Position numbers and translations under genes: made by a program
Part shown: positions 3,666-28,462 of the stretch, in pieces
How the letters are laid out: each line of letters starts with the position of its first letter
Position numbering within the stretch: position 1 is the stretch's first letter
Source of the DNA: Saccharothrix carnea
GTDB taxonomy: Bacteria > Actinomycetota > Actinomycetes > Mycobacteriales > Pseudonocardiaceae
DNA: 64,000 bases
NCBI RefSeq assembly: GCF_003014735.1
Contig: NZ_PYAX01000003.1
Span: 310,001-374,000 of the forward strand
Direction: 5' to 3'
The notes under the pieces: model-generated
What the model was told of the DNA's origin: nothing
Database searches by the model: none
Seen by the model: only the letters and a program-made list of their open reading frames with translations

Positions 3666-4445
3666 TCACGGCAACCGGCTGAAGCATCGCGCTTCGGGCC
3701 GCATCAGCGCACGGAAGTGTCCGTCGAGTCTCGACGCGAACGCACGGTCGTGGGACAGCACGCCCACCTCGATGTTGCCCGACAAGCCCCGATCGGTGAG
3801 GTTGGCGCTGCCAAGGAGCGCTGTCTCCGCGTCAGCGACCACCACCTTCGCGTGCAACGACGCGGCCCCGCCGCGATGTTCGGCGGGCCAGTGCCAGAAA
3901 GTCGCCACGTCCCGCAGCCCGGCGAACACCTCCGCGCCTCCCGCGCCGCGCAGCGCGCCTCCCTCCGCGGTCGAGGTCTCCAGGACGAGGTCCAACCGGA
4001 CGCCCCGGTGGGCGGCGGCCAGGAGGTGACGAGTCACCTCGGCGACTCCGTAAGCGGCGAAGCTGACCACCAGCAGCCTGCGGGTCGCCCGGCTCACGAC
4101 TTCACCGACCACTGCTCCGGTGAGCCGCACGGGTACGGCGTCGGTCATCGGGCCACTGATCACGAGTCGCGCACGGTCGTTGTCTGCCCGCTCCTGCACG
4201 TGCGCCGCGGTGGCCAGGGCCAGTGCGATCGCCGGCCCGGGCAGGTCGGGAGCATGCCGACGCCACGCCCTCACGAGCCGTTCGGCGGCGGTCGCCGCCT
4301 CCGTGCCGGGTTCGCGCGTGATGAGCACGCGCAGCGAGCCGTCCGCCGGACCTGCCATGCCGGCGAGGGCCGCGCACCAGTTGGCGATCTGGGTGTCGGA
4401 CAGCAGGACGACCAATCCAGCCAGGTCGGCGGCGAGGTCGGTCAC
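3666..4445 (-). CDS. drmC: DrmC, phospholipase-D-like protein of DISARM
   Basis: The 259-residue protein starts at a GTG that overlaps the drmB stop (GTGA, 4442-4445), so it should be translationally coupled. An open frame extends upstream into drmB, but the overlap start is much more likely. A single HKD motif is visible: H198-A-K200 with D205, followed by GSANLT at 212-217 and E226 (NIEVG). DrmC is the PLD-family component found in all DISARM loci; it is described as dispensable in at least one tested system, and its nuclease role is not settled. PLD enzymes need two HKD motifs per active site, so this one would have to dimerise. Confidence 0.9.
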   Translation of the reverse strand: MTDLAADLAGLVVLLSDTQIANWCAALAGMAGPADGSLRVLITREPGTEAATAAERLVRAWRRHAPDLPGPAIALALATAAHVQERADNDRARLVISGPMTDAVPVRLTGAVVGEVVSRATRRLLVVSFAAYGVAEVTRHLLAAAHRGVRLDLVLETSTAEGGALRGAGGAEVFAGLRDVATFWHWPAEHRGGAASLHAKVVVADAETALLGSANLTDRGLSGNIEVGVLSHDRAFASRLDGHFRALMRPEARCFSRLP

Positions 4446-6268
4446 CGGAAGAATCCCGGCCCACTGGATGCGAGGGTGTCCACGAGCAGCGCCCGGTCGA
4501 GGTACTGGTTTCCTCGTTCGCACGAGGTTTCGGATGCGAACAGACAGGCGTGGCAGGCCGCCCCGTAGAGCCGGCCGTGTTCGGTCGGGTCGTGCTCGGA
4601 GCACAGCGGGTCGCTGCTGCACAGCCTCGCCGCGTCGAGCGCCCGCCTGATCAGCGCGCCCAGGTTCTCCTTCTCGCCGAGCCTCACCAGCCCTCCGAGG
4701 GTGCCTTCGCTGTCCGGGGCTGCGGTGTAGAGCAGGACACCCGCCATGTCACGCCGCTCGTTGGTCGCGTAGATCCGCTCGCCGATGCCAGAGGCGCTGT
4801 ACCCGGATTCCAGCGCCAGTTCGCGGATCAGTGCGTGCGCGAAAGTGTGCAGCAGCACGTACCGCGCGCCGGGCCAGGCGTCCGGGTCGAGCTGCCGCCG
4901 CCGTCGCCACTCGTGGTGGGCGGGTTCCAGTTTCGCGGTCCGCCTCCGCACCTCATCCGAGCGCTCCCAGGACGCCAGCACGTCCTCCTTGAAGTGGAGG
5001 AAGATGCCTTCGCCACGCATCTCGGCGCACGGCACCCAGGTCGGAGCTTCCACCGACAAGCGCGCGCGTCGCACGTCCTGCGCGCCGGGTTCACCCCACT
5101 CAGGGGCATCGATGCGGGTGAACCCGTAGAGCGCGGCCACTTCGCGCAGTCGCGTGACCAGCAGGACGTTCTCCAGCCACGTCTGGGCGTCCTTCGGCCG
5201 GGTCTCACGGCGGGTGGTGAAGTCGTCGAGGTCGTACTCCTCACGACCGCTGAACACGTCCCACTCGGGAGTACGCAGGTCGTGGGTGTCGTCGGGAGCC
5301 GGATCAGGTGGTGAGTCGGCGTGCTGCCGGATCGCGCGCCACACTTCGTCCTCGCCGTGCCGGCTCAGTTCGGGCCAGCACGCCTGGCTGCGCATCAGGC
5401 TCTTGCCGATGGTCTCGTCCAACCCGGCGAGCAGGCTCAACACGCCCCAGTACTCGGCGACGGCGTGTTCCACCTGACCGGTGGCCTGCGGCAGGCTGAA
5501 GGCGCGCAGCTGCATGGCGAACCAGCTGTTGGTCGCGCCGAGGACGAGGGTGCGGGGCCGTTGGTCGCAGTCCTCGAACGTCCCCAGGTGGGGATGGCGG
5601 CCACGACAGCGCGGCAGGGTGGCCGCGGCGGCCAGGCCGACCGCCTGCGCCATGCTCTGCTTCATCCCGCACGAGCACTCGACGCGGACGTTGGCCACCT
5701 CACCGGTGGTGCCGGTCTCGTAGAGCCTGAGGACGTGGTCGTCGGTCGGCTCCGTCCCCCGGTGGACGAAGTAGAGCCACGGGAAGTCGTCCAGGTGCCC
5801 GTTGTCGCAGGCCAGGACGAACCGGGCGGGGACCGCGACTCCCCGTTTCGAACAGTTGTGCAGGTACCGCACCCGGTCCGGGCGGTAGGCGTCGTGGACG
5901 AAGCCGAACGGCTGGGCGTCGGCACGCCCGAGGTAGTTGCAGCCAGGCTCGGAGCACCGCAGCCAGGTCGGGAACAGCCCGACCGGAACGCCCACCTTGG
6001 CCCACTGCCCGAACACGTCGGGCGTCTCCGGCAGGTGCGGTGGGTGCCAGAGCCGCTCCACCTGGTCGCCGAGGCGGGCACGCACGGCGGCGAGCAACCG
6101 GTCCTCGGTGATCTCCCTGGCGGCCGAGAGGTCCCAGTGGTCGAGGCCCAGGGTGATGACGGACAGGTTCGGCAGGTCGGCCACCGAACCGACACCGTAG
6201 GTGTGCAGGAGCTGGCTCGGCCGCAGGCTGCCGACCCGGCTCGGGTGGTTCGGGTCGGAGGAGGTCAC
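4442..6268 (-). CDS. drmB: DrmB, DUF1998 protein of DISARM
   Basis: The 608-residue protein opens with the diagnostic PSQLLHTYGVGSVADLPNLS (about residues 18-37). It carries a DUF1998-type C-terminal region with Cys pairs likely to bind zinc: CSEPGCNYLGRAD (near 109), CSCGMKQS (near 201) and CHACLFASETSCERG near residues 575-590. DrmB forms the core complex with the DrmA helicase; published structural work on DrmAB shows single-stranded DNA loading at free ends. The start overlaps the drmA stop by four bases (6265-6268) and the end overlaps drmC, a tight drmA-drmB-drmC operon. DUF1998 alone is not specific for DISARM; the neighbours make the call. Confidence 0.94.
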   Translation of the reverse strand: MTSSDPNHPSRVGSLRPSQLLHTYGVGSVADLPNLSVITLGLDHWDLSAAREITEDRLLAAVRARLGDQVERLWHPPHLPETPDVFGQWAKVGVPVGLFPTWLRCSEPGCNYLGRADAQPFGFVHDAYRPDRVRYLHNCSKRGVAVPARFVLACDNGHLDDFPWLYFVHRGTEPTDDHVLRLYETGTTGEVANVRVECSCGMKQSMAQAVGLAAAATLPRCRGRHPHLGTFEDCDQRPRTLVLGATNSWFAMQLRAFSLPQATGQVEHAVAEYWGVLSLLAGLDETIGKSLMRSQACWPELSRHGEDEVWRAIRQHADSPPDPAPDDTHDLRTPEWDVFSGREEYDLDDFTTRRETRPKDAQTWLENVLLVTRLREVAALYGFTRIDAPEWGEPGAQDVRRARLSVEAPTWVPCAEMRGEGIFLHFKEDVLASWERSDEVRRRTAKLEPAHHEWRRRRQLDPDAWPGARYVLLHTFAHALIRELALESGYSASGIGERIYATNERRDMAGVLLYTAAPDSEGTLGGLVRLGEKENLGALIRRALDAARLCSSDPLCSEHDPTEHGRLYGAACHACLFASETSCERGNQYLDRALLVDTLASSGPGFFR

Positions 6269-9200
6269 CGGTCACCCCCGTCGGTGTCGTCGTTCGGCGG
6301 CCGGAACCGCGGTTCATCGCCCCACGGGTCGATCCCAGGGAGCAGCTGCAACTGGATGCCGGGTTCGACGTCGCGCAGCGACGTCGGCGCGGGCAGCCCG
6401 GACCGGCCGGGCGTGCCTGCCCGGCGCAGCAGGCCCGCGATGTCCCCGGATGCCGGCGGCTGGTCGTAGCCGAGGCGGACACCCGGCTGGCCCTGCGCCT
6501 TGGCCCACTGGTCGAGGCGCTGTTCCAGCTGTTCGGTGACGCGCTGCTTCGCTCCCCTGGGGAAAGCCTCCGCCCGCTGGCCCAGGCGGCGCACGACGTG
6601 ATCGGCCAGCTTGGAGTGCCGGTCGAACGTGCGCGCTCCGAAGTTGCCGTTGTGGTCGAGTTCCAGGTTGCGCACCAGCGCCACCATGACTCCGGTGAGG
6701 CCGCGGTCGATAGCGCGGTCGGCGAACGGGGTCACGGAGAGCGCTTCGACGCGCCGGTAGTAGGTCTGGTGGAAGTGCTCGAAGGTCTCGAAGTGCGACA
6801 GGTCACGCGGCCGGGCCCAGTTGTAGACGGTGAACACCAGGCCAGGCGCCTGGCGGCCGACGCGGCTGGTGGCCTGGATGTACTCGGCGGTGGACTTGGG
6901 CTGGTTGGTCACGACCATCACGCCTAGGCGCGGCACGTCGACCCCGACCGCGATCATGCTCGTGGCGAGCAGCACGTCGATCGGCTTGGGTGAGCCCTTG
7001 GGCCGGTCGCCGAACCGGATCTCCAACTTGTCCAGCAGGGGCCGGATGGCGTCGGAGTTCATCCTGGACGTCAGCTCGGCCTGCGCCAGGTCGTACCGCT
7101 TGGCCAGGCCGCGCTGGTCGGCCCGGACGAGACGGGCACTGACGTCGTCCTCCACCAACCTGCGCATCCCGCCCAGGTCGCGCAGCGAGTTGAAGTAGCC
7201 GACGAGCGTCATGTACGGGTCGGTCACCTCGTTGCGCCCGTACTCCTCGTGCAGCCGCTGCGCCGCGCCGAGCACGGACACGTACACGCGGATCAGGGTG
7301 GATTTCATGCGCGACCCGTGCGCGCAGATCCCGACGTACCGGCGGCCGGGCCGGTCCCGGACGGGTCGCCTGCGGGCGAAGTAGCTGTCGTCGACGGTCA
7401 GGCCCGACGGCGGGAACACCTCGGTCCTGCGGTTAAACAGGTCCCCGATCTGCTGGGTGGCGCGGCGGACGGTCGCGGTGGACGCGACGACCTTGGGCCG
7501 GACGGACCGGCCGTCGTCGAGCCGCCACGTCGCCAGCAGGTCCACGGCTGTCTCGTAGAGGCCGACCAGCGACCCGAGCGGCCCGGAGATGAGGTGCAGC
7601 TCGTCCTGGATGATCAGGTCCGGCGGGCGCAACCAGGTCACCTCGGTGCGGCGGCCCGCGTGCCGCTTCTTCTCCCAGTCGGCGTCCTCCGCGTCCTTGG
7701 CCAGGTACCCGTGCACGTCGCAGCGCTTGCCCACACGCCCGAACAGGGCAGCGGTCTCACCCTTCCAGGGGAGTTGGGCGAACTTGTCGACGGTGGCGAT
7801 GAGCAGGCTCGGCGGGTGGCGGTAGATCTCCTCGTCCACCACGAGCACCGGCAGTCCTCGGTCCCAGGGGTCGCTCGGACCGGGCAGGGCGCCGAACGGG
7901 CACAGCACGTCGGCGCACTCGATCACAGTGCGGCGCGAGGCCTTCTCGACGTCGATCCCGCCCTTGTCGATCGGGGTGCCGCACCACGGGCAGTTGGTGA
8001 CCTGGTGCGGCGAGCCCTGGCCGAACGTGGGTTTGCCGCGGGACCTCCGCACGTTCTGCACCCAGTCGGCCGCGTCGTCGGTGCGGTTGGGGGTGACGCG
8101 TCCGCCGACCCACAGCCCGACGCGGAACGGCGCGGGGCCCCAGGTGGCCAAGTCGTCGCGGCGCAACACCTCGGCGGCGCAGATCAGCGTCGTCGCACGC
8201 TCGAACTGCTGGATCGTCAGCAGCCGGAGCGTGTAGCGCATCAGCACGGCGACGCCCTCGTCCGCTCGCAACCCGCCGTACGCCGGTTGCAGCCGCCGGA
8301 TGGCCAGGGTGAAAGCGGTCAGCCCCAGGTAAGCCTCGGTCTTGCCGCCGCCCGTGGGGAACCACAGCAGGTCGGCCAGCCCCTTGTTCCGATCCGGTGA
8401 CCGCTCGTCGTGCCGCGGATCGGCCAAGGACGGCAGGTTGAGCAGGACGAAAGCTAGCTGGAACGGCCGCCAACTGCGTTCGGTTGGCACGTCCACCTCG
8501 GCCACGACCTCGGCCAGTGACCGGGTCCGGTCGCGGCGGCGCACGTCGGCGGCCTCGCTGTGCACGCGCTGCTCGGCCATCGCGCGGTTGGCGAACCCGA
8601 ACGCGCGGCGCACGTCGACGTCGGTCTCCAGCAGGGCTACGCCCGCCTCGATCCGGTCGGCCGTGCGGCGTGCGGTCTTCAGCGCCTCGACCGCTTCGGA
8701 GCGGTGACCGTCGAGCCGGGCGTCCGGGCCGTCGACCTCCTCGGTGCGCTGCTCGATCCACGTGCGGTAGCCGGTGACGAGGGGGCGCAGGACCGCCGCC
8801 AGCGGCTCCGGTGGGCCGTCGGCGAGCTCGGCGAGCACCCGCATGTCGAGCACGACGTCCCGCAGCGCCTCCAGGTCCTCGTCGTCCTCCACGTTCGGCA
8901 CGTCCGTGGCGGGGACCTCCGCGTGCGGCACGGTGCTGGTGGTGAGCCGGACCGCGCGCTCTGACCGGTCGGTGCGCCGCTCGGCCGTCACCGCGGCGCC
9001 GTGCCCGATCGCGAACTCGGGCACGAAGCGGTAGGTCATGGCGAGGCCGCGTTGCTCGTCCTGGTCGACCGGGTGCCCGCCGGACGGCTCGTCGGGGCGG
9101 GGTAGGAACACCTCGGCTCCGCCCGGTGCGGCGGCGGACAACTCCGCCTGGAACAGCCAGTCGGCCGAGGCACGCCCGTTGCCGCGCGGCTGCCGGTTCT

Positions 9201-9747
9201 CCAGGAACAACGACACCAGCCAGTCGCTGCCGTGCCGCCGTGCCTTACCCCGCACCACGACATCCGGGGCTTCCGCCACCACCGCCATCGGGACGAGCTG
9301 CCCTTCGGCGAGCGCCACCGTGACGGTCCCTTTCAGCGGGACTCGCCGCCACACGCGGTTGGGCAGCCCTTCCGCCGTCTCGGCGGTGACGCGCTCGTAG
9401 CGGCCCCACTTCGCGGTCACCTCAAGCCGGTCGACGTCCCCGGCGACGGTCGTGGTGAACCCGATGGAGGACAAGGCGAGGCTGGCCGTATTCGGCGCGC
9501 TGGGTTCCCGCACGCCTTCCTCCGGCTCGGCGGCGGCGCTCTCGGCCAGCTCGTCCTGGGTCTCCGGCTCGATCACCTCGCCGCGCGGCGCGAGGCGGCC
9601 CAGCGGGTAGCGGTCCAGTGGGTCTTCCCGCGTGAACTCCTCGTGCTCGCCTTCCAGCGGACCGAGGAGGTCTTTGAGCACCAGCTCCTGGAGCCGATCG
9701 CGGATGACGCGGGGTTCCGGTGGAGGGAGGACGGACGGGCGGTTCAT
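6265..9747 (-). CDS. drmA: DrmA, DISARM helicase
   Basis: The 1160-residue protein is a superfamily 2 helicase with the DISARM DrmA layout: about 460 residues of N-terminal region, then Walker A FPTGGGKTEAYLGL near residue 463, a DExH-like motif IIQDELHLISGPLGSLVGLY near 708, motif III SATVRRATQQ near 755-760, and motif VI QATSRVGRQ near 960. Cys pairs (NCPWCGTP and CADVLCPFG) near 590-630 may bind zinc. I chose ATG 9747 (MNRPSVLPPP) over a GTG/ATG 29 codons upstream because conserved-looking sequence begins here. It starts 70 bases after the stop of the zinc-ribbon gene on the same strand. Confidence 0.95.
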   Translation of the reverse strand: MNRPSVLPPPEPRVIRDRLQELVLKDLLGPLEGEHEEFTREDPLDRYPLGRLAPRGEVIEPETQDELAESAAAEPEEGVREPSAPNTASLALSSIGFTTTVAGDVDRLEVTAKWGRYERVTAETAEGLPNRVWRRVPLKGTVTVALAEGQLVPMAVVAEAPDVVVRGKARRHGSDWLVSLFLENRQPRGNGRASADWLFQAELSAAAPGGAEVFLPRPDEPSGGHPVDQDEQRGLAMTYRFVPEFAIGHGAAVTAERRTDRSERAVRLTTSTVPHAEVPATDVPNVEDDEDLEALRDVVLDMRVLAELADGPPEPLAAVLRPLVTGYRTWIEQRTEEVDGPDARLDGHRSEAVEALKTARRTADRIEAGVALLETDVDVRRAFGFANRAMAEQRVHSEAADVRRRDRTRSLAEVVAEVDVPTERSWRPFQLAFVLLNLPSLADPRHDERSPDRNKGLADLLWFPTGGGKTEAYLGLTAFTLAIRRLQPAYGGLRADEGVAVLMRYTLRLLTIQQFERATTLICAAEVLRRDDLATWGPAPFRVGLWVGGRVTPNRTDDAADWVQNVRRSRGKPTFGQGSPHQVTNCPWCGTPIDKGGIDVEKASRRTVIECADVLCPFGALPGPSDPWDRGLPVLVVDEEIYRHPPSLLIATVDKFAQLPWKGETAALFGRVGKRCDVHGYLAKDAEDADWEKKRHAGRRTEVTWLRPPDLIIQDELHLISGPLGSLVGLYETAVDLLATWRLDDGRSVRPKVVASTATVRRATQQIGDLFNRRTEVFPPSGLTVDDSYFARRRPVRDRPGRRYVGICAHGSRMKSTLIRVYVSVLGAAQRLHEEYGRNEVTDPYMTLVGYFNSLRDLGGMRRLVEDDVSARLVRADQRGLAKRYDLAQAELTSRMNSDAIRPLLDKLEIRFGDRPKGSPKPIDVLLATSMIAVGVDVPRLGVMVVTNQPKSTAEYIQATSRVGRQAPGLVFTVYNWARPRDLSHFETFEHFHQTYYRRVEALSVTPFADRAIDRGLTGVMVALVRNLELDHNGNFGARTFDRHSKLADHVVRRLGQRAEAFPRGAKQRVTEQLEQRLDQWAKAQGQPGVRLGYDQPPASGDIAGLLRRAGTPGRSGLPAPTSLRDVEPGIQLQLLPGIDPWGDEPRFRPPNDDTDGGDR

Positions 9748-9817: not shown

Positions 9818-10489
9818 TCAGCATCGGCACCCACCGTTCTCGGTGACGACCATGTCGCACGAGTCGCAGCGGACGACCCTGGTGGCGATCTGATCCGGGC
9901 GCGGCAGCGAGGTGCGGCGGTGTGGGCTGGGATTGGCCTGGGGTGCGACCGTGCCGTACTTCCTCACGCGCCTGACGCGACGGCCCTTCGTCGCCGTCTT
10001 CGCGACCTTCTCCTGTTTCGATGACCCGGAAGCCGATTTGCCCTTAGCGGGTACCGTCGATTTTTCTTTCCTCGCCGACTTGGCACCCTTCACCGACGTG
10101 GGTGCGGGCTGCTTGCGATTCAATTCGTCCGCGACCATTTGTCGGGTGACGGGATGGCCGACGATCCCGGTAACGGCGCGCGCACAGTCCCTGTAAGAAC
10201 TCTGCGGATTGCGGTTGCGCCAGTCCCGAATGGCCTTCCGCCAGGTTTCAGGCTTCATCGCCGCCGACTTCCTACCCGCTGCGGAAGGCTGCGCCGCCCG
10301 CTTGCCGACGGGCTCGGCGTGCGCCCCCCGCCGGGACTCCACCACCAAGTCGTCGATGCTGAAGGGGTCCGGCCGATCGTCGTTCTCGAAGTCGAACCCT
10401 GGGAGCACATCGATCACGTGAGCGTGATCGTCGTACCAATCATTGATGCGTCCCACCACGACCTCCTCGTCCGCACTCCACCGGTTCAT
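9818..10489 (-). CDS. Unknown basic protein with C-terminal Cys cluster, first gene of the drmABC operon
   Basis: The 223-residue protein starts at ATG 10487-10489; an open frame upstream overlaps the divergent methylase gene and is ignored. Three parts are visible. Residues 1-60 are acidic (WSADEEVVVGRINDWYDDHA ...). The middle (about 80-125) contains KPETWRKAIRDWRNRNPQSS and VTRQMVADEL, which looks like a small helix-turn-helix-type segment. A Lys/Ala/Ser-rich linker then leads to CDSCDMVVTENGGCRC at the very C-terminus, four Cys in C-x2-C-x9-C-x-C spacing. It is probably a nucleic-acid binding protein. It is not one of the named Drm proteins I know. Its place ahead of drmA and divergent from a methylase suggests a regulator or accessory subunit of DISARM. 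Confidence 0.72.
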   Translation of the reverse strand: MNRWSADEEVVVGRINDWYDDHAHVIDVLPGFDFENDDRPDPFSIDDLVVESRRGAHAEPVGKRAAQPSAAGRKSAAMKPETWRKAIRDWRNRNPQSSYRDCARAVTGIVGHPVTRQMVADELNRKQPAPTSVKGAKSARKEKSTVPAKGKSASGSSKQEKVAKTATKGRRVRRVRKYGTVAPQANPSPHRRTSLPRPDQIATRVVRCDSCDMVVTENGGCRC

Positions 10490-10585: not shown

Positions 10586-13500
10586 GTGTCCATTACCACG
10601 CATATAAGTGAGCAAACCTCTACTGTAACGAAAAGAGCACGCCACGCCGCCGTTGCGGAGCAACACGGAGAGTGGCTCTCCCTCCTCCGACCAGCCGGCC
10701 CTTTCATCGCCCTTCCACTCCTCGCGGAGGTTTTCCCCTCCGGCATCGACACCGTTCCCGCAGTTTTGCGCGATCGGTTACGCCAATCGTGGACGGAGTT
10801 CGACGCCGATCCCGTCCTCTTCGGGGAGGCGTGGCAGGACTTCGTGCTCGGCGAACTGCTGCGCTTCCCACCCTCTGCGCTTCGGGATGCCGCAGCCGCG
10901 AAAAACGACATCCGAGGGTCCTTCAAGCCTGATCAGGTCGTGCTGTCCCCTGCGGATGGCGACGTGCGCTTGCACCTCTACCGCCGGGACGTGGACATCG
11001 AGCTGGCTGCCCGCGTATGCCGCGACACCGGCACCGCACTGGCGCTTTCGACGAACGGCCGGTTCTGGACGCTGATCCACGCCCGGCCCGGCGGCCCTAC
11101 CAGCACCGCTGTCTTCGACGCCGATCTTTGGGCTGAAGAGCCACTGCTGTTGCGCGCGTTCGTGTCGCTGCTCTCGGCACAGCGAGTACTCGCCCCCGTC
11201 GAGCGCCCAGACACCACCGCCGCCCTGCTCGCCCGCACCGAGGAAGAGCAGAGCCGCATCACGGACACGCTCGGCGGACAAGTCCGACAGGCCGTGGAGC
11301 TGCTGGTCGGCGAGTTCTCCCGGCTCGACCGCGAAGCCCGCGGCGCGCTGCTGGTCGAGGTCGGCGAGCGCGAGATCTACCGAGCCGCGCTGACCACCCT
11401 CATGCGGTTGGTGTTCCTCCTCTACGCCGAGCAGCGCGAGCTGCTCCCGCTCCGCGACCCCGTCTACCGGGACGGCTACGCGGTCACGACGCTGCACCAG
11501 CAGCTCGGAGAGGACCGCGACCGGCACGGGGAGGAGGTGGGCGACCGGCGCAGCGCCGCGTGGTCCCGGCTGCTGGCGACGTTCCAGGCCGTGCACGGAG
11601 GCAGTGAGCACCCGGATCTCCGCATCCCCGCGCACGGCGGCTCGCTGTTCGACCTGGCCGCCCACCCGTGGCTGACTGCCATGCGCGTCACCGACCGGGT
11701 CACGCACGAGGTCCTGGAGTCGCTGCTGGTGCTCAAGCACCGCGGCAAGGCTGCCGAGCGGCTGACCTACCAGGGGTTGCACGTCGAGCAGATCGGACAC
11801 GTCTACGAAGGTCTGCTCGACCACTCCTGCCGCAAGGTCACCGAACCCCACCTGGGCCTGATCGGCAAGTGGGAACCGGGGCTGCCGCTGTCTGCGGTGG
11901 AGTCGGGCGTGGACTTCACCGACGTCTGCGGCCTGACCACCAAGCAGACGGAAAAGGCACTCGCCGCCCAACCAACCCCGGCCGACCTGGCCGCGCTGCA
12001 CGCCGCCTGCGACAACGATTCCGCACTCGCCGACCGCGTCCGACCGTTCTGGGGTCTGCTGCGTAGGGACCTACGCGGCGCCCCGACGGTCTTCCCGGCC
12101 GGGTCGGTGGTCTTCACCGGTGATGGCGGCCGGCGCAGCACCGGCACGTACTACACCCCTCGTGAGCTGGCCCGCGAGGTTGTCGAGCACACGCTCGCAC
12201 CGCTGTGTCGGGTCCGGGAACCCTCTGGTGAATTCCGGCCCCGCACCGCCGACGAGCTGCTGGCGCTCAAGGTCTGCGACCCCACCATGGGGTCCGGCGC
12301 GTTCCTCGTCTCGGCGTGCGAGTACCTCGCCGCTCGACTGGTCGAAGCGTGGGAGCGGGAAGGACTGCCCTCCGATGTCGGCGGTACTGCCGATGACGTG
12401 CGGCTGGCCGCGATGCGCCAGGTCGCGGCGCGCTGCCTGTACGGCGTGGACCACGATGACATGGCCGTGGTGCTGGCCAAGCTGTCGCTGTGGCTCGTCA
12501 CCTGGGCCAAGGGGAGGCCGTTCAGCTTCGTCGACCACGCCCTGCGCTGCGGCGACTCGCTGCTCGGTCTGACCAGCGAGCGCCAGGTCGAGCGCTTCCA
12601 CCTCGACCCGAACGGCGCGGGCCGGGAGTCGGGGCGCTGGACGTTCGGCGTCGCCGAAGACCTCATCAGCCCGGTCCTCGCCGAGGTCGCCGACCTGCGG
12701 CGATGCATCGAGGATCATGCGGCCGACGACATCCGGCAGATCACCGAGAAGCAGGAGAAGTTGTCCCGCGCGGACCACCTGACCCGACGGCTCCGGCTCG
12801 TCGCCGACGTGGTGGTCGGCGCGGCGCTGACCACGTTCGGGCAGGGCGAACAGCGTTACCGCGATCGCTTAGCCGCCGTGTCGGAAGAGGCCATCAGTCT
12901 GCTGACCGAGGAGGAGAACGGCGGTCCGGCCGAGCAACGGGTTCGCGAGGTCGTCACCGAGTGGCTCTCCACCGGCCGCCCACGCCCGCTCAGGCCGTTC
13001 CACTGGGCACTGGAGTTCCCGGAGGTCATGCGGCGCGGCGGCTTCGACGCGATCATCGGCAACCCGCCGTTCGTCGGCGGTCAGCGGCTGACCGGGTCGA
13101 TAGGGCGCGATGTTCGCGAGTACCTGGTCACCCGGTTGGCCAAGGGCAAGCGCGGCAGCGCCGACCTGTGCTCATACTTTCTGTTGCGCGACCTGCAGAT
13201 CTCGGCCGGTGGCCGCGTCGGGATCATCGCCACCAACACCATCGCCCAGGGGGACACCCGTGAGGTCGGGCTCGACCAAGTGATCTCGGCGGGTTGGCGG
13301 ATCTATCGTGCCGTCAAGTCCCAGCCTTGGCCTCAAACCAAGCAATCCGTCACGGTGTCGCTGGTGTGGGTCGGGCAGACGGAAGAGGACGAGGTCTTCT
13401 ACACGTCGTCCCTCGACTTGCCGTCTCGCGTGTCCGGTGACGCTCACCGATTAGCCGCCAACGCGGGACAGTCGTTCATCGGTTCCTACGTGCTCGGCAC

Positions 13501-18780: not shown

Positions 18781-18892
18781 CCCCGAACCTCTCGTGTCGT
18801 AGCCATCTGATCACGGTGTGTGCCGCTACAGTGCCTGACGGGATAGCTGAACAGAAAGTGAGATCTCACATGTGCACCCTTTTGGAGGACGG

Positions 18893-19777: not shown

Positions 19778-19800
19778 CCGATACCTGACGAGGATGTGGG

Positions 19801-19980: not shown

Positions 19981-20100
19981 CACGACGCGGAAGTCGTTGT
20001 GCACCAAGGGATTCGTAACCGTGGGCACTCACCCGGACGATGCGCGGACTCGCCCGGTCGAGTGATGACCTGCGAATACGCGTTCGAATAGCATCGAGGC

Positions 20101-21285
20101 ATGGATCTCTCGCCCGCGTTGCTGACCGAGGACGACGTGGTCGCCGCTCTCGCGGCGACCGAGGCGTCCGTGCGGGCGGCGCACCGGCGACGCCTGGAAC
20201 TCTTGGCCGAGGCGCTGCGGTGCGGTTACGACCTCGATGCCTGCCGCCAAGTGATGCGGGTCGATCCGGCCGAGTTGAAGCAGTGGACCGCCCAGGTGGA
20301 ACTGTTCCTGCCCTCGATCACCCCGACCGGACAGCCCTTGCCGCCGTTGCACCCCGCCGTCGGCGCGGTGTTGGCGGACGCGGAGTTGTCGGACCGGCAC
20401 CTGCGGGAGTTGACCCGCGCCATCGTGACCTTGAAACTGCCCGACGAGTCGGAGCCGATCCTGGTCGAGGCGGCGCGGTCGGTCGAGCCGAAAGTGGTCC
20501 GGCAACTGGCCGACCGGATCCGGGACCGCCTCGACCAGGACGCGGTCGACGAGATCGACGAGCCCGCCGCCGAACCCGCCGACGTGCTCCACCTGCGGGA
20601 CTTGCCCGGAGGCAGGGTGGAGTTCTGGGGTGAGCTCTCGGCCGAGACCGGCGCCCGGTTCACCGCGATGCTGGAACCGTTGTCGCAGCCGCGTCCGGAC
20701 GGCCCGAAGGACCGGGCGCACCGGTTGGGTGAGGCGTTCGGGGACCTGGTGTCGTTGGCCTCCCGGTCCGAGCACCTGCCGTCCGAGGCGGGAGAGCGTC
20801 CGCACATCAGCGTCGTGGTCGACTTCGAGACCTTGCGGCACGGGATCGGGCACGCGGTGCTCGACGGGGACCACTACCTCAGCGCCGCCCAAGCTCGTCG
20901 GATCGCTTGCGACGCCAGAGTGATCCCGGTGGTGCTGGGCGGCAACTCGGAAGTGCTAGACCTGGGGCGCACCAAGCGGACCGTCAGCGTGGCGCAGCGC
21001 AAGGCCCTGCACGCCCGTGACCGTGGCTGCGCCTTCCCGGGCTGCGGGCGACCGCCGAAGTGGTGCGACGCCCACCACGTCAGGTTTTGGATGAACGGCG
21101 GGGGCACCGATCTGGACAACCTGGTGCTGCTGTGCAGGACTCACCACAGCCTCATCCACCACTCGCGCTGGACCATCACCATGACCGGCGGGGTGCCCGC
21201 GTTCATCCCACCCCGCCACGTCGATCCGGCCCAACGCCCTCGCCAGAACCTCCTCCACCGACCACCGGCGAGCCTCGCGGCCTGA
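20101..21285 (+). CDS. DUF222 / HNH endonuclease (13E12-repeat type)
   Basis: The 394-residue protein has an N-terminal DUF222 helical region (residues 1-300) and a C-terminal HNH domain: RDRGCAFPGCGRPPKWCDAH near 305-324, DLDNLVLLCRTHH near 333-345 and a short tail. The Cys pairs and the HH/N/H residues of the zinc finger and active site are all present. These proteins are found in many copies in actinobacterial genomes and related to mycobacterial 13E12 repeat proteins; their biological role is unproved. Its 3' end is close to the convergent drmMI copy 2 (41 bases). Confidence 0.9.
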   Translation: MDLSPALLTEDDVVAALAATEASVRAAHRRRLELLAEALRCGYDLDACRQVMRVDPAELKQWTAQVELFLPSITPTGQPLPPLHPAVGAVLADAELSDRHLRELTRAIVTLKLPDESEPILVEAARSVEPKVVRQLADRIRDRLDQDAVDEIDEPAAEPADVLHLRDLPGGRVEFWGELSAETGARFTAMLEPLSQPRPDGPKDRAHRLGEAFGDLVSLASRSEHLPSEAGERPHISVVVDFETLRHGIGHAVLDGDHYLSAAQARRIACDARVIPVVLGGNSEVLDLGRTKRTVSVAQRKALHARDRGCAFPGCGRPPKWCDAHHVRFWMNGGGTDLDNLVLLCRTHHSLIHHSRWTITMTGGVPAFIPPRHVDPAQRPRQNLLHRPPASLAA

Positions 21286-21326
21286 TCGCACACCCGGTAC
21301 CGGCACTTGACCGACTGGTCCGAGTG

Positions 21327-24300
21327 CTAGAACAACGCGCCTTCGGGCGGGAACAGTTCGCCTTCGATCGACGGCAGGGCAGCGGGAGCCGCCTTCCGCT
21401 TGCCCTTCCCTTTGTTGTGCAAGCCCTTGGCGACCTCTTCGGCATACCGCTGGTGGTTGAGTTCGAGCAACCGGTCCAACACCTCGACCTGCACGACGGG
21501 GTCGATCGTGAACCGCCGCCCCTGCCGCGTGTCGTAGAAGCCGTGGTTGAGGTCGAGATCGGTCCACCCATACGCCTCGGCCACCGCGTAGTCGACCTCG
21601 GTGTGAATCTCCCGCAACCGCCGCACTTCGGCATCGCCGACGCCATCGTTGTGCACCAGGTTGTAGAGCTTGGTCAACCCGAGTTGCCTCCCCAACATCA
21701 CCCCACGCCGGAACGAGTGCAACTCCTCCCCCACTCGATCCATCCGCGCCGTCAACTCAGGCTGTGCAAACGTCTCGAACCCGTCGGAGGGCGTGTACCG
21801 CAACCGCGTTTCAAGGGTCGACGCAGCCTTGATAGTCCACCAAGCGAAGTGAACACCACTAGAGAGAAGCGCCAAGAATGCATCACGATCACTTGCGAAC
21901 ACAACTGTGGCATCACTGAAAACCTGCCCCGTTGGAACCCAAAGAGGAAGACCCATCTTCGTGTGCCTCGTAAGCGCAAGAACCCGCCTTAGCCCCAAAA
22001 TAGCGGCATACAATTCAGCTCTCGGCCTCCAATACTGCCACCAACGTTCGCGCAACCCCTCATAGCTTCCAACAGACTTAAGTTGACGCTGAGGCTTAAT
22101 TTTGTTCTCAGCAATGCGAAAGACTTCGACATACTCCGCAGCCCGCTCTTCGCTCCAGGTGTGAAAGTTTACAATCCACCTTTCCGCCAGACACTCGGGG
22201 TTCGAGTTCAACTCCTCTCCGATCAGATACGGAAGAACCACCTCGCGGTTTCGTTCACCAGAAGCAATCAGCGCCAATGCCGAATCTTCAGAGAGGAAAA
22301 ATTCATCACCCCATACAATGCTACCTTGAAATGCCTTGCCCGAGTTTCCCGCTAGCCGGTAAGGGTTGCCTGCAACCCTCGAACTCGCTTCCAAGGAGGG
22401 TGTTATGGAACTTACATCGCGTCCCTCAAGCCAAGGCGAGCCACTTGCATCACGCCCCACCCAGAGCAGCGACACCTCCAGCGATGCGGTTCCCGGCCAG
22501 GGCTGGGACTTCACCGCGCGGTAGATGTTCCAGCCCTTGTCCACCGCCTGGTCCAGACCGACCTCTCGGGTATCCCCCTGCGCAATGGTGTTGGTGGCGA
22601 TGATCCCGACCCGTCCCCGGTCCGCGACCTCCAGGTCCCGCAACAGGAAGTAGGAGCACAGGTCCGCGTTGCCCGGCTTGTCCTTGGCGATCCGCTGCTT
22701 CAGGTACTCGCGCACGTCGACACCGAGCGCGCCGCTGACCCGTTTGCCGCCAATGAACGGCGGATTGCCCACGATCGCGTCGAAACCGCCGCGCCGCATG
22801 ACCTCCGGAAACTCCAGCGCCCAGTGGAACGGCCTGATGGGCTGGGGCCGCGTGCCCTTCAACCACTCGTTGACCACACCGACCAGTGCCCGCTCAACGG
22901 GACTGTCGCCGTCCTGTTCCTTCAACAGCTCGAAGGCTTCGTCCACCTGGCTGGTCAGCCGGTCCCGGTAGCGGTCCTCGTTCTGCCCCGCCGTGCTGAG
23001 CGCGGCACCGACCACCACATCGGCGACCAACCGCAGTCGCCGGGTCAGCTTCTCGGCCTGGGCCAGCTTGGCGGTCTTCTCCTCGATGTCGCGCGCGTCT
23101 TTCGCGGCGCTGTCCTCGATCTCCTGGCGCAGTTCGGCGACCTGGCTCAGCGTCGGTCCGATCGACGTGCTGGCGTGGCCGGCGAGCCAGCCCGCCTCGC
23201 CGGCGTCCTCGCTCATCCTCGGGGGATCGATGTGGAAGCGCTCGACCTGCTCCTCCCTGGTCACGCCGATCAGCGAGTCGCCGCAGCGCAGTGCGTGGTC
23301 GAGGAAGCTGAAGGGCTTGTTGCGTTCCAGCGTCACCAGCCACATCGACAGCTTGGCCAGTTCGACCGCCATGTCGTCGCGGTCCACGCCGTAGACGCAC
23401 TTGGCCGCCACGCGCCGCATGGCGGCGAGCTTCACGTCCTCGGCAGTCCCACCGACGCCCTCGGGCAGTCCTTCGCGCTCCCATGCCTCCACCAGCCGCG
23501 TCGCGAGGTAGTCGCACGCCGAGACCAGGAACGCGCCGGAGCCCATCGTCGGGTCGCAGACCTTGAGCGCCAGCAACTCCTTCGCCGTGCGCAGCCGCGA
23601 CACACCCGGCTCGTCCTTGATGTAGCAGAGCGGCGCGAGGGTGTGCTCCACGATCTCCCGCGCGAGCTTTTTGGGCGTGTAGTGGGTGCCGGTGGCCCTG
23701 CGGTCGCCGACCTTGGTGAACAGGACCGACCGGGCCGGGAACACGGTGGGCTCGCCGCGCAGGTCCCGGCGCAGCAATCCCCAGAAGGGCCGCACGCGCT
23801 CGGCCAGCTCGGAGTCGTTGTCGCAGGCGGCGTGCAGCGCAGCCAGGTCGGCCGGGGTGGGCTTGGCGGCCAGCGCCTTCTCCACCTGCTTGACGGTGAG
23901 GCCGCAGACCTCCTTGAAGTCGACCCCGGCCTCGACTGCGGACAGCGGCAGCTCGGGCTCGTGCTTGCCGATCAGCCCGACGTAGGGCTCATGGACCTTC
24001 TTGCACGAGAACTCCAGCAGGCCCTCGTAGACGTGGCCGATCTGCTCGACGTCCAGGCCCGTGTAGCTCAGCCGCTCCGCCGCTTTGCCCCGGTGCTTGA
24101 GCACCAGCAGCGCGTCCAGGACCTCGTGCACCACGCGGTCGGTCACGCCCATGCCCGTCAGCCACGGGTGTGCGGCCGGGTCGAACAAAGAGCCGCCGTG
24201 GGCGGGGACGCGCAGCTCGGGGTGCTCGCAGCCGCCGTGGATGGCGGCGAACGTGGCCAGCAGACGCAGCCAGGCGGCGCTGCGCCGGTCGCCGACCTCC

Positions 24301-25268
24301 TCGCCGTGCCGGTCGCGGTCCTCGGCCAGCTGCTCGTAGAGCGCGGTGACGGCGTACCCGTCGTGGTAGACGGGGTCCTTGATCGGCAGCAACTCGCGCT
24401 GCTCGGCGTAGAGCAGGAACACCAGCCGCATGAGCGTGGTGAGCGCCCCGCGGTAGACGTCGCGCTCCGCGACGTCGGCCAGCGGCGTCCCGGCGGCCTC
24501 GCGGTCGAGCCGGGCGAACTCACTGACCAGCAGCTCCACGGCCTGTCGGACCTGCGCGCCCAGGGTATCGGTGACCTGGGTCTGCTCGTCCTCGGTGCGG
24601 GCGAACAGGGCGGCCGTGGTGTCCGGCCGGTCTGCGGGGGCCAACATCCGCTGTGCCGACAGCAGCGATACGAACGCGCGCAGCAGTAGCGGCTCCTCCG
24701 ACCACAGGTCGGCGTCGAACACCGCCGTGCTGGTCGGGCCGCCCGGCCGGGCGTGGACGAGGGTCCAGAGCTTGCCGTCGGTGAGCAGCGCCAGGGGCGT
24801 GGCGGTGTCCCGGCAGACACGCGCCACCAGTTCCGGGTCGGCGTCGCGGCGGTAGACGTGCAGCCGCGCCGCCGTGCCGCCGGACGCGCCCGGGTCGGGG
24901 CCGAAGACCACCTGGTCGGGCTGGAGAGGGCCGGGGACGGTCACCTCGGCCACGGCGGTGTCGCGCAGCGCGGAAGCCGGGTAGCGCAGCAACTCGCCGA
25001 GCACGAGGTCCTGCCAGGCGGTCCGCAGCGACGTCGGGTCGGCGTCGAACTCGGCCCACGCCTGCCGCACCCGGTCGCGGGTGTGCGCGGGCAGCACCTC
25101 GATGCCGTTCGGGAACACCTCGGTCAGCACCGGCAGCGCGATGAACGGGCCGTCCGGGCGCAGCAGCGCGATCCACTCGGCGTGCTGCTCGGCCGGGGAG
25201 GATGCCGGGGAGCGCCGGGGTCGGGCCGCCGACTTCGGCTTCGCGCCCCTCGTCAGGGTCGTGGTCAT
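21327..25268 (-). CDS. drmMI: DrmMI copy 2, DISARM adenine-N6 DNA methyltransferase
   Basis: The 1313-residue Eco57I-type methylase starts at ATG 25266-25268, overlapping the drmD stop (ATGA), so drmD and this gene are coupled. Motif I VCDPTMGSGAFLVS is near residue 565-580 and GNPPFIGG near 833-840. N-terminal and catalytic parts closely match copy 1; the C-terminal target-recognition part (about 940-1145, coordinates 21830-22440) differs much more and has GC of only 43-52% in sampled 60-base lines, against about 75% in the catalytic part. Therefore the recognition region seems to be imported from another source. Function: host modification for DISARM, probably N6-methyladenine at an unknown site. 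Confidence 0.94.
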   Translation of the reverse strand: MTTTLTRGAKPKSAARPRRSPASSPAEQHAEWIALLRPDGPFIALPVLTEVFPNGIEVLPAHTRDRVRQAWAEFDADPTSLRTAWQDLVLGELLRYPASALRDTAVAEVTVPGPLQPDQVVFGPDPGASGGTAARLHVYRRDADPELVARVCRDTATPLALLTDGKLWTLVHARPGGPTSTAVFDADLWSEEPLLLRAFVSLLSAQRMLAPADRPDTTAALFARTEDEQTQVTDTLGAQVRQAVELLVSEFARLDREAAGTPLADVAERDVYRGALTTLMRLVFLLYAEQRELLPIKDPVYHDGYAVTALYEQLAEDRDRHGEEVGDRRSAAWLRLLATFAAIHGGCEHPELRVPAHGGSLFDPAAHPWLTGMGVTDRVVHEVLDALLVLKHRGKAAERLSYTGLDVEQIGHVYEGLLEFSCKKVHEPYVGLIGKHEPELPLSAVEAGVDFKEVCGLTVKQVEKALAAKPTPADLAALHAACDNDSELAERVRPFWGLLRRDLRGEPTVFPARSVLFTKVGDRRATGTHYTPKKLAREIVEHTLAPLCYIKDEPGVSRLRTAKELLALKVCDPTMGSGAFLVSACDYLATRLVEAWEREGLPEGVGGTAEDVKLAAMRRVAAKCVYGVDRDDMAVELAKLSMWLVTLERNKPFSFLDHALRCGDSLIGVTREEQVERFHIDPPRMSEDAGEAGWLAGHASTSIGPTLSQVAELRQEIEDSAAKDARDIEEKTAKLAQAEKLTRRLRLVADVVVGAALSTAGQNEDRYRDRLTSQVDEAFELLKEQDGDSPVERALVGVVNEWLKGTRPQPIRPFHWALEFPEVMRRGGFDAIVGNPPFIGGKRVSGALGVDVREYLKQRIAKDKPGNADLCSYFLLRDLEVADRGRVGIIATNTIAQGDTREVGLDQAVDKGWNIYRAVKSQPWPGTASLEVSLLWVGRDASGSPWLEGRDVSSITPSLEASSRVAGNPYRLAGNSGKAFQGSIVWGDEFFLSEDSALALIASGERNREVVLPYLIGEELNSNPECLAERWIVNFHTWSEERAAEYVEVFRIAENKIKPQRQLKSVGSYEGLRERWWQYWRPRAELYAAILGLRRVLALTRHTKMGLPLWVPTGQVFSDATVVFASDRDAFLALLSSGVHFAWWTIKAASTLETRLRYTPSDGFETFAQPELTARMDRVGEELHSFRRGVMLGRQLGLTKLYNLVHNDGVGDAEVRRLREIHTEVDYAVAEAYGWTDLDLNHGFYDTRQGRRFTIDPVVQVEVLDRLLELNHQRYAEEVAKGLHNKGKGKRKAAPAALPSIEGELFPPEGALF

Positions 25269-28200
25269 CGTCCGGCTCCTCGTGCGATCGCGGATGGCAC
25301 CAGCAGTGTCACCGCCACCGGGAACCACCGCGTGGTGGGGTCGGCGTAGCGGCGGCGCAGCGCCTCGACCTCGCGTTCCTGCTGCTCGGGGATGGCCTCC
25401 AGGCGGGCGCGCAGCGCGTCGTGGTCGGCCCTGAGCTGGTCGCGCTCGTCGTCGACTTCGAACAGGCTGGGCTGCCACACGTCGGTGTCGTCCAGCGCGG
25501 CCCGGATGGACTTCTCCAGCTCCTCCAGCACCTTGCCGATGCCCTCGACCTCCTCGTCGCAGCGGTCCCGGAGCATGACCCTCATGCTGCGCAGGCGCTG
25601 GTCGGCTCGGGTGTTGAGAGCCTTGGCCAGCGGGTCCTTGAGCACTGGCCACAGCTCGGTGAACTTGTCGCGCATCCCGTGGGCGGGTTCCTCGGAGGCG
25701 GCGGCCAGCAGGGCGTCCACCTCGTCGACCTTGCGGATCAGCGAGAACCTGCCCTGCTCGACCAGACCACCGGCGGAGACGATCTCCTCGTGCAACCGGC
25801 TGCCGTCCGCGCCGGTCACCACGACGCGGCCGTGGGCGACCACGGCGGGAACGCGGAGGGTGTCACCCGACATGACCCGGGTGGTGATGCGGTGCAGCTT
25901 CGCGCCCGTGGCGGAACCACCCCCGCCGGCCGCCGCGTTCAGGTGGGCTTTCGTCTGCGCCCACAGCTCGGCCCTCAGCAGGCCCATGCACATCTGCACC
26001 AGCCGGTGGCCCAGGTGCAGCAGCACCACGTCGGTGCGGCCGGCCACGGCCTCCTGGTCGAAGCTGACCACGCGCTCCTCGCCAGTCACCGGGTGGTGCA
26101 GGCCGTCGTTGCGCGCGGCGGCCCAGGCGCCCGGCAGCTCGGGCAGCCGGAACACCTCGCCGTCGAACCCAGGTGGAGGCGTGGCGGGTCGCAGTTCTTG
26201 GCGGTGGGCGAGCTTCAGCGCGGTGTCGACCACGCGCCGCACCGTCGCGGGGTGCAGGTTGAGCTTCGCGCGGCTGGAGCGCAGTTCCTCGGTCAGGCGC
26301 TCCAGGTCACGGGCGAGGTCGCGTTCCACCTTGAGCTTGGCGCGGCCGGCGCGCTGGGTGATCTCCCGGTCGGCGGTCTGCCAGTCGCCGCGCTCGCCGA
26401 CCATCTTCTGCTCGATCTGGGCGGCGATGACCTCACCCGCGCTGCCCAGGTCCTCCCGGATCTGGTGCACCTTGCGGACAGCGACCTCCAGGAACGCCAG
26501 TTCGTCCTCCAGCGAGCCTTCCGCGAAGTCGTGCTTTTCCCAGCCCTTGGGCACGAAGTGGTGCACGAGCACCACTGGCGCGGGCTGACCATGCCGGTCG
26601 ACGCGGCCGTTGCGCTGTTCCAGGCGGTTGGGGTTCCAGGGGATCTCCCAGTGCAGCACCCGGTGGCAGTGGCGCTGGAGGTTGATGCCCTCGCTGGCGG
26701 CGTCGGTGGCCAGCAGGATGCGCACCGGGTCCAACTCCGGGTCCTCGGTGAAGACGCTCTTAATGCGCTCGCGTTCATCGACGTCCTGCCCGCCGTAGAG
26801 CAGGGCGATCTTCTCCGGTGGGTAGCCCGCACCCAGCAACCTCTCGTGCAGCCAGCGCTGGGTGTCGCGGTACTCGGTGAAGATGATGATGCGCTCGTCG
26901 GCTTCGTCCACGACCGGTCGCAGGTGCTCCAGCAGGGCGGCGATCTTGCTGTCCGGCCGGTCCCGGGCGGCCGTCGCCCAGTCGCGCAGCTGCTCCAGCA
27001 GCCGCTTTTCCTCTGCGGTCAGCGAGGGCGTACCCCGGCGGGCCACGCGCAGCGCGTCCGTCTCGGCCTCGCGGTAGTGGCCGCTGTCGGCGTCGTCCTC
27101 GTCGGCGGCCTCGGTGATGCGATCGATCAGCACCGGCAGGACCTGCGGGGCCAGAGCTTCGTCGGTGCCGTGGTCGCGCTCGGTCATCGTCGCGAGGTGG
27201 ACCTCGACGGTCTGCGTGAACGCCTCCGGCGAGGAGAACAGGCGGCGCTTGAGCAGCGTGGTGACGAAGTCGGCCGCGGTCTTCGGGCCCCTGCCGCGTC
27301 GGCTGTCGCTGTAGCGGCGCAGCAGGTCGTGCACCTCGCGCTCGGCCTCGGAGTGGTCGACCTCCAAGTAGTCCAGCTCGCGGGTGCCGAAGTAGGACGA
27401 TCCGTCCCACTTCTTCGGCAGCTCGCTCTTGAGCCTGCGCACCATCGCCCGCTTGAGCTGCTCCTCGGACGGGCGGACGTTGCGGGCGAAGCGCTGGTCG
27501 TCCAACATCTCCAGCAGCGCGGTGAAGGACTCCAGGTAACCGTTGTGGGGCGTCGCCGACAGGAACAGCCGGTGCTCGCAGTGCGGGGCCAGGGTGCGGA
27601 TCGCCTTCGTGCGCAGCGAGTCCACCGCGTACTTGCCGCGTCCTGAGGGCGCGCAGGTGTGCACCTCGTCGACCACCAGCAGGTCGAACTCGCGCGGGTA
27701 GCGCGGGGTGGCCGGCAGCACCTGCTGGAGCAGCCGCATCGGCCGGGAGCGCTTGAGCCAGTCGACGCTGACGATGAGCCTCGGGTAGTGCGTCCACGGA
27801 TTGGCGTGCGGACCGCGAGCGCGGCGCAGCTGCTTGAGCAGGTCGGAATCCACGATGCGGAAGTCGAGGCCGAACTTGTCGCGCATCTCGTCGCGCCACT
27901 GGAGCGTGAGGCCGGCGGGGCAGACGATCAGCATAGTGCGGGCGCGGTGGCGCAGCGCCAGTTCCTGCATGACCAGTCCGGCCTCGATGGTCTTGCCCAT
28001 GCCGACGTCGTCGGCGATCAGCAGGTTCGTGCGCGGCATCGACAGCGCCCGCACCACCGGGTCGAGCTGGTAGTCCTCGATCTGGATGCCGGACCGGAAG
28101 GGTGCCTGCAGGGCGCTGGTGTCGGCCGAGGCGATCGCGCCCCAGCGCACCGCGTCGAGGAACGCGTCCAGTTCGGAGGGTTCGTCGAAGCCGTTCTCCG

Positions 28201-28462
28201 GACCGGGCAGCACCGCCGTCTCGTGGACGACCGCGCCGACCTCCAGCTCCCAGACCACCCGCAGTTCTTCGTCGCGGGCGTCGTCCTCGATGCTGACCAG
28301 CGTCACCAGGTGGGTGCGTGCGGCCGAGAAGAAGTGCGGGTCGCTGCTCGCGATCTCGCTGTCCACCACACTGGCCACCACCCACTGGCGGTTGCGCACC
28401 GTAACCAGTTGCCCCTGCGCGGGCACCACCGAAGACTCGACCGTCGTCACGCCACTCCCCAC
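25265..28462 (-). CDS. drmD: DrmD, SNF2-like helicase of class 1 DISARM
   Basis: The 1065-residue protein is a SNF2/RapA-like ATPase: DDVGMGKTIEAGLVMQEL near residues 149-167, DEAH-type motif VVDEVHTCAP near 261, SATPHNGY near 305, and C-terminal helicase motif LEQRNGRVDRHGQ near 610-622. DrmD defines class 1 DISARM together with DrmMI. Start: GTG 28462; a GTG four codons later (28450, preceded by GGGGAG) is as plausible. It is divergent from the UvrD-like helicase gene (68 bases). The stop overlaps the start of drmMI copy 2. Confidence 0.94.
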   Translation of the reverse strand: MGSGVTTVESSVVPAQGQLVTVRNRQWVVASVVDSEIASSDPHFFSAARTHLVTLVSIEDDARDEELRVVWELEVGAVVHETAVLPGPENGFDEPSELDAFLDAVRWGAIASADTSALQAPFRSGIQIEDYQLDPVVRALSMPRTNLLIADDVGMGKTIEAGLVMQELALRHRARTMLIVCPAGLTLQWRDEMRDKFGLDFRIVDSDLLKQLRRARGPHANPWTHYPRLIVSVDWLKRSRPMRLLQQVLPATPRYPREFDLLVVDEVHTCAPSGRGKYAVDSLRTKAIRTLAPHCEHRLFLSATPHNGYLESFTALLEMLDDQRFARNVRPSEEQLKRAMVRRLKSELPKKWDGSSYFGTRELDYLEVDHSEAEREVHDLLRRYSDSRRGRGPKTAADFVTTLLKRRLFSSPEAFTQTVEVHLATMTERDHGTDEALAPQVLPVLIDRITEAADEDDADSGHYREAETDALRVARRGTPSLTAEEKRLLEQLRDWATAARDRPDSKIAALLEHLRPVVDEADERIIIFTEYRDTQRWLHERLLGAGYPPEKIALLYGGQDVDERERIKSVFTEDPELDPVRILLATDAASEGINLQRHCHRVLHWEIPWNPNRLEQRNGRVDRHGQPAPVVLVHHFVPKGWEKHDFAEGSLEDELAFLEVAVRKVHQIREDLGSAGEVIAAQIEQKMVGERGDWQTADREITQRAGRAKLKVERDLARDLERLTEELRSSRAKLNLHPATVRRVVDTALKLAHRQELRPATPPPGFDGEVFRLPELPGAWAAARNDGLHHPVTGEERVVSFDQEAVAGRTDVVLLHLGHRLVQMCMGLLRAELWAQTKAHLNAAAGGGGSATGAKLHRITTRVMSGDTLRVPAVVAHGRVVVTGADGSRLHEEIVSAGGLVEQGRFSLIRKVDEVDALLAAASEEPAHGMRDKFTELWPVLKDPLAKALNTRADQRLRSMRVMLRDRCDEEVEGIGKVLEELEKSIRAALDDTDVWQPSLFEVDDERDQLRADHDALRARLEAIPEQQEREVEALRRRYADPTTRWFPVAVTLLVPSAIARGAGR

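Follow-up and report, generated by a model that had tools for sequence, protein, structure and literature searches.

Two diverged DrmMI methylases, probably from one inverted duplication, in a class 1 DISARM locus of Saccharothrix carnea

A 64,000-nt stretch of the genome of Saccharothrix carnea (NZ_PYAX01000003.1, positions 310,001-374,000; genome of 8.9 Mb), hereafter the window, holds a complete class 1 DISARM (defence island system associated with restriction-modification) locus with two paralogues of the methylase gene drmMI, one of them inverted. Both paralogues probably descend from one old inverted duplication, after which their recognition domains would have diverged and given the host two self-marks. 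The best reading is that two methylation specificities serve one DrmABCD set; it is favoured because the target-recognition domains (TRDs) of the two methylases are 53% identical and both genes are intact. The preliminary description of this DNA had made the same proposal, which gains from that divergence and stays a prediction.

According to the proposed course of events, drmMI would have been duplicated once, with inversion, the copy landing in the drmMI-drmA slot before the split from Saccharothrix deserti, and the recognition domains would then have diverged, as the alignments indicate. Both genes are most likely made, drmMI-2 from the drmD operon and drmMI-1 from a promoter of its own, divergent from drmABC. 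Each product would methylate host adenines at a motif of its own; the single DrmABCD set would, judging by the family, attack DNA without these marks, and two motifs would widen or secure the self-mark that it reads. The cargo between the methylases would not have been the vehicle of the second one; part of it persists at the site without DISARM. DISARM methylation is thought to separate self from phage. A second or switching specificity, if real, changes which phages escape through modification and how immigrant DNA is judged, and bears on the number of marks, one or more, to which DrmAB responds. Type I restriction-modification (R-M) systems are known to switch their self-mark, and the same is mentioned for bacteriophage exclusion (BREX) systems; DISARM would then join them.

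Gene content and comparison of the two methylases

The order is drmC-drmB-drmA on the minus strand, drmMI-1 on the plus strand, 6.9 kb of other genes and, on the minus strand again, drmMI-2 followed by drmD. Genes were named with PADLOC and NCBIfam; no NCBIfam DrmMI model was listed for either methylase, and PADLOC was used for both. drmC (3666..4622, minus strand), a PLD nuclease with the HxK motif HAKVVVAD at residue 257, scores 207.5 bits with NF038319 (cut-off 133); drmB (4442..6268, minus strand; MrfA Zn-binding domain, Pfam MZB), 674.7 bits with NF038324 (cut-off 240); drmA (6265..9747, minus strand; helicase of the short form, with GGGKT and DELH), 1299.5 bits with NF038325 (cut-off 950); and drmD (25265..28462, minus strand; SNF2-like helicase), 1278.4 bits with NF038317 (cut-off 610). 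drmMI-1 (10586..14446, plus strand; PADLOC DrmMI, 1434.8 bits; motifs I and IV intact) faces drmMI-2 (21327..25268, minus strand; 1477.0 bits), which starts at 25268 and is joined to drmD by an ATGA overlap; a GTGA overlap joins drmA and drmB. With DrmA, DrmB, DrmC and DrmD above NCBIfam cut-offs and two DrmMI named by PADLOC, the class 1 content is complete. DrmD together with DrmMI is the signature of that class. The layout of the preliminary description (drmABC at 3666-9747, inverted drmMI at 10586-14446, drmD-drmMI at 21327-28462) was confirmed by these models, and an open reading frame (ORF) of 223 aa was added to it. The window thus has every gene of class 1 DISARM, and differs from it in its two drmMI paralogues, one inverted, with cargo between them in place of the one unbroken operon with a single drmMI that is usual, not defining, for the class.

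Aligned as the preliminary description had suggested, the two methylases are 68% identical overall and least alike in the TRD (13388..14035, plus strand, in drmMI-1, Pfam MmeI_TRD, 37.0 bits, cut-off 27; 21711..22373, minus strand, in drmMI-2, same model, 24.0 bits, under the cut-off). The lowest blocks are residues 961-1040 (43%), 1-80 (51%) and 1041-1120 (53%); blocks 161-640 (72-86%) and 1121-1280 (71-76%) are better conserved. The TRD is the largest, not the sole, difference. The methylase motifs DPTMGSGAF and GNPPF are kept by both. A predicted structure of residues 540-1286 (mean pLDDT 87) gave MmeI (5hr4) as best match, with an E-value (E) of 5.9e-20 and a TM-score of 0.53. That one drmMI might be a stand-alone type II enzyme, a possibility raised in the preliminary description, was not borne out: DrmMI models outscore the best IIG model for both (1435 and 1477 bits vs. 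721 and 734), so a type IIG/IIL R-M enzyme is not indicated, and the methylases adjoin drm genes and group with the DrmMI of DISARM loci, not outside the DrmMI clade.

A single drmMI was found in 78 of the 79 named DrmMI loci, more than one only in S. deserti; drmA was seen on the fetched stretch in 65 of the 79, the slot being incompletely seen in the other 14. One count merged same-strand matches within 300 nt, which would hide direct tandem pairs; a separate inspection of the 79 loci found no such pair. Because the gap between drmMI and drmA is at least 1 kb in 42 of the 63 loci in which drmA follows drmMI on its strand, the split between these genes is in itself ordinary. The statement that class 1 loci normally form one operon with one drmMI is borne out for the single methylase and weak for the unbroken operon. 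In a family survey that scored two DrmMI candidates per genome, a DrmMI match (E 1e-60) was present in 40/390 genomes, own included; the inverted full pair occurs among these in the window genome (G000) and in S. deserti (G013). Direct pairs occur in tandem in G219 and at a distance of about 8.5 kb in G343, and G342 has drmD-drmMI and drmMI-drmA-B-C halves on two contigs. DrmMI relatives are held by 33 plasmid records, all below 60% identity. As a separate observation, one copy of the direct pairs at L107:6512-14690 and L108:2674-19230 has GSAAF at motif I, the other GNQPY at motif IV; these changed motifs perhaps reflect a division of labour between the copies.

Two methylases in one DISARM are also described for Serratia, where an adenine and a cytosine methylase act at ACAC(mA)G and YMT(mC)GAKR, respectively (PMC9142583); the window differs in that both are DrmMI paralogues. 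In the same source unmethylated DNA stimulates the DrmAB ATPase, and activity is lower with 5-methylcytosine DNA. In Cutibacterium acnes a 32.5-kb island interrupts drmMI (PMC7365801), so that this DISARM is likewise disturbed by other genes; the window has two unbroken drmMI, and the other genes separate them. In BREX, pglX can be duplicated or phase-variable (PMC11842806); the parallel is a duplicated defence methylase whose TRD sets specificity, but PglX models score far below cut-off for the window methylases (drmMI-1, 34.6 vs. 900 and 34.3 vs. 500 bits; drmMI-2, 41.5 vs. 500 bits). ARMADA has two further proteins in common with class 1 DISARM (PMC12458937).

Origin of the second methylase

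A comparison is offered by a genome of the same genus taken as S. deserti (contig C4; locus L001, NZ_ML775960.1), in which drmC-drmB-drmA (minus), drmMI (plus), drmMI (minus) and drmD (minus) follow in the same order, with 38 nt between the drmMI frames and the cargo absent. Both drmMI are thus present without cargo, and therefore the second methylase needed no cargo insertion. The drmMI-1 orthologues of the two species are 77% identical.

Trees were built from 23 rows (four Saccharothrix copies and 19 other DrmMI), separately for the N-terminal half, the middle part and the C-half. In the N-half and middle-part trees all four Saccharothrix copies fall into a single clade (100/100 in each tree), within which the drmMI-1 of both species pair at 100/99 in either tree and the drmMI-2 at 90/63 (N-half) and 97/92 (middle part). 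Because of these pairings a single duplication would predate the split of S. carnea and S. deserti. The C-half has a separate history: drmMI-2 of S. deserti is a long outlier, about 45-47% identical past motif IV to its best matches elsewhere, and its C-half, from about motif IV onward, is by this sequence comparison a replaced one; the C-halves of window drmMI-2, Herbihabitans and Actinoplanes group with both drmMI-1 at 80/93. TRD halves therefore probably moved between lineages.

A merger of two DISARM systems, the second origin put forward in the preliminary description, is unlikely. Each half of the window locus does bring its own drmMI, and drmD-drmMI and drmMI-drmA-B-C halves also occur in G343 and on the two contigs of G342; given the single clade of the four copies, any such partners would need to have been close relatives, and the order in S. 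deserti is compact. The same low probability is given to drmMI-1 being a dead or redundant copy in the course of loss: loss of the locus is possible, to judge by a drmMI relic in G007, another genome of the genus, whereas in both species each copy retains intact frames and motifs I and IV despite the divergence of the drmMI-1 orthologues.

Slightly less probable still is the first origin in the preliminary description, the interruption of a single ancestral operon by an insertion that carried the second methylase together with the cargo. The cargo does lie between the two drmMI, and GC content is lower in the 223-aa ORF region (0.66) and in drmMI-1, cargo, drmMI-2 and the adjoining UvrD gene (0.67-0.68) than in drmCBA, drmD and the flanks (0.70-0.73). 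Against this, a relative with the same insertion had been suggested as a check, and S. deserti has the drm order without the insertion; cargo genes are present at the corresponding chromosomal site, without DISARM, in three genomes (G007, G024 and G018), and drmMI-1 and drmMI-2 are each other's closest relatives outside the C-half.

Inverted drmMI cassettes beside a serine recombinase

In seven genomes of three families an inverted piece of the drmMI 3' half occupies the slot between drmMI and drmA, beside a serine recombinase gene. An inverted 3' part between drmMI and drmA was found in G341, G269 and G263 (family survey) and in G794 and G766 (class survey; DrmMI match at E 1e-30 in 31/394 genomes), that of G766 being short, about 550 nt. 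In loci L104, L105 and L106 the recombinase gene (Resolvase PF00239 and Recombinase PF07508) lies between the inverted part and drmA; recombinases 73-74% identical to these occur in L116 and L117, the value for L116 against L105 being 74%. L105 has the full class 1 set, with DrmC, DrmB, DrmA and DrmD above NCBIfam cut-offs and DrmMI named by PADLOC.

The cassette regions are L104:6769-9380, L105:7409-10050, L106:11219-15219 and L116:8947-11560. The inverted copy matches the expressed one exactly over 336 nt (L104), 334 nt (L105), 341 nt (L106) and 404 nt (L116); in L117, where the cassette is degenerate and the alignment unusable, 31 nt are shared exactly. In L104, L105 and L106 the first 300 nt from a sharp edge are 99-100% identical, and 26 of the 30 100-column blocks beyond them are 49-76% identical; in L116 identical and divergent patches alternate between the copies. 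These patterns show, at the level of sequence, recent recombination or conversion between the expressed and the inverted copy. An inverted repeat that opens a second TRD half was found together with a recombinase in L104, L105, L106 and L116, and recombinational switching of methylation specificity is therefore suggested in these four loci by 334-404 nt of exact sharing. From its position, the recombinase would drive the exchange of drmMI copies. L106 speaks against switching in that its drmMI is broken by an insertion element, the 3' part giving two separate matches, and the recombinase match counts one stop; this locus may be dead. In G323 and G492, seen up to contig ends, the recombinase gene stands beside drmA, inverted drmMI sequence is present over 99 and 414 nt, respectively, and the contig ends recur, over 99 and 63 nt, in the contig carrying the rest of drmMI; contigs ending in the repeat are a hint only, at one assembly per species, of both orientations in one strain.

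The recombinase is rare, with matches in 6/390 (four close), 1/327 and 6/149 (two close) genomes in three family searches, and plasmids gave no match to it at E 1e-40. All seven cellular recombinases of at least 73% identity adjoin drm genes; four checked at 41-53% do not, and two more matches are 37% identical. Its relatives on viral contigs (L176-L180, 62-74% identity) have no drm gene on the fetched stretch, of about 5 kb only for two of the contigs, in five of five cases, and the four viral stretches scanned for inverted repeats of at least 40 nt have none. Exclusive association of the recombinase with DISARM was rejected on account of these viral relatives; it looks as if recruited from phage-type integrases.

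The nearest known parallel is the duplicated, inverted hsdS of type I R-M systems (PMC7394358), where an inverted spare specificity is likewise kept, part of the loci also having a recombinase; L104-L106, L116 and L117 share these features. The window pair differs from it in having neither long repeats nor a recombinase, and the cassette relatives differ in using a DISARM methylase and a large serine recombinase. In the literature on DISARM, phase variation and invertible TRDs, no switching DISARM and no DISARM with doubled drmMI was among the matches listed (titles and beginnings of abstracts).

Active inversion at the window locus, swapping the 3' halves of the two drmMI, is the least probable of all explanations and was rejected: orientation, the slot shared with the recombinase-linked cassettes and the C-half exchange in S. 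deserti drmMI-2 are in its favour, but the longest exact match between the two drmMI is 27 nt in S. carnea and S. deserti alike (vs. 334-404 nt in four cassette loci), the cassette recombinase was not found in either genome at E 1e-40, a search of the window that tolerated as many as 3 mismatches found no cassette-joint core, and no Pfam recombinase was among the scanned ORFs neighbouring the window DISARM.

The slot between drmMI and drmA would thus be a store of spare specificity, fixed as a full gene in Saccharothrix and switchable in the cassette lineage. We lean, by little, towards this wider picture, in which a recombinase would flip the TRD half of a phase-variable DISARM in the three-family lineage and a full second methylase would set two simultaneous self-marks in Saccharothrix.

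Several points weigh against the inverted duplication with two self-marks and against its extension to the cassettes. The TRDs, at 53% identity, could share one motif, and drmMI-1 may be silent. Divergence between the two drmMI also lies outside the TRD (residues 1-80, 51%; 81-160, 61%; 641-800, 55-57%). The pairing of drmMI-2 across species is weak in the N-half tree (90/63), and the C-half tree is mixed, placing window drmMI-2 with Herbihabitans and Actinoplanes (83/81), so that its TRD half, too, may have been exchanged. As for the self-mark, methylated DNA still supports some ATP hydrolysis, the test of Bravo 2022 used 5-methylcytosine, and class 2 DISARM gives protection from modified phage as well (all PMC9142583). 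In two of the seven cassette loci the visible part of the cassette ends after its first 99 or 414 nt; cassette-bearing DISARMs are 36-39% identical to the window in drmA, drmB and drmD, and the slot shared by cassette and second methylase may be convergence. Among the cargo genes, the ORFs at 14581, 15000 and 15851 and the HNH gene are unmatched at sites without DISARM, and G009, G004 and G018 have the XRE-DUF397 pair elsewhere on the chromosome as well.

Cargo genes and chromosomal site

The cargo (14447..21326, mixed strands), put at about 7 kb in the preliminary description, measures 6.9 kb. It comprises, with Pfam assignments, a NucA/B-like nuclease (16446-17819, minus), an XRE/DUF5753 regulator (18893-19777, plus) with its DUF397 partner (19801-19980, plus) and a DUF222/HNH protein (20101-21285, plus); unknown ORFs lie at 14581-15012 (plus), 15000-15824 (minus), 15851-16405 (plus) and 18098-18499 (minus).

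In G007 and G024, of the same genus and without DrmMI match, the ORF at 18098, XRE and DUF397 are colinear at the same site, between S51 peptidase and SulP genes; G018, also of the genus, has XRE-DUF397 at the corresponding peptidase/SulP site. The NucA/B gene is present at sites without DISARM as a relic only, in G024 and (blastn) in G007. Between the peptidase gene and this relic, G007 carries a 72-nt drmMI relic (L139:4983-5053; blastn) that is 90% identical and has lost one base, and a short match to the UvrD tail precedes SulP in G007 and G024. G007 seems to have lost a window-like locus, because the drmMI relic and the UvrD tail remain at the site. Seven further genomes were compared there: G022, G003, G005, G020 and G002 have peptidase, DUF6194 and SulP genes with no drm match between them, and G015 and G008 gave no DUF6194 or SulP match at the site. 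The exact positions of the DISARM loci differ, S. deserti having its locus between DUF6194 and SulP and the window between peptidase and DUF6194. From the flank comparison that gave the relics in G007, the blastn matches alone were used, tblastx having given mostly chance matches in high-GC DNA.

An XRE-like ORF match was given by 18 of the 79 named DrmMI loci. In an XRE tree the window XRE groups with orthologues from the genus (100/100, 7 rows), apart from a 12-row clade linked to DISARM, and the window XRE/DUF397 was accordingly dropped as an old DISARM partner. The 12-row clade, mostly from Streptomyces, is a possible DISARM regulator in its own right, encoded on the opposite strand directly after drmMI (L003:14321-15343, L004, L009, L012-L015, L021, L027, L046, L077 and L118).

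The basic 223-aa ORF with a C-terminal cysteine cluster (9818..10489, minus), in the gap between drmA and drmMI-1, has no Pfam or PADLOC match and no match in the 118 other genomes of 119 searched (E 1e-5); one weak match (26%) in L139 is probably compositional. A UvrD-type helicase (28531-30576, plus) adjoins drmD and is matched by the NERD-UvrD and GajB models of PADLOC. Farther on (36169-40071, minus) lies a large iHD-CE/wHTH-Hsp90_Na-associated protein, which is patchy in the genus (8/25 genomes at E 1e-40, own included; others 38-46% identical).

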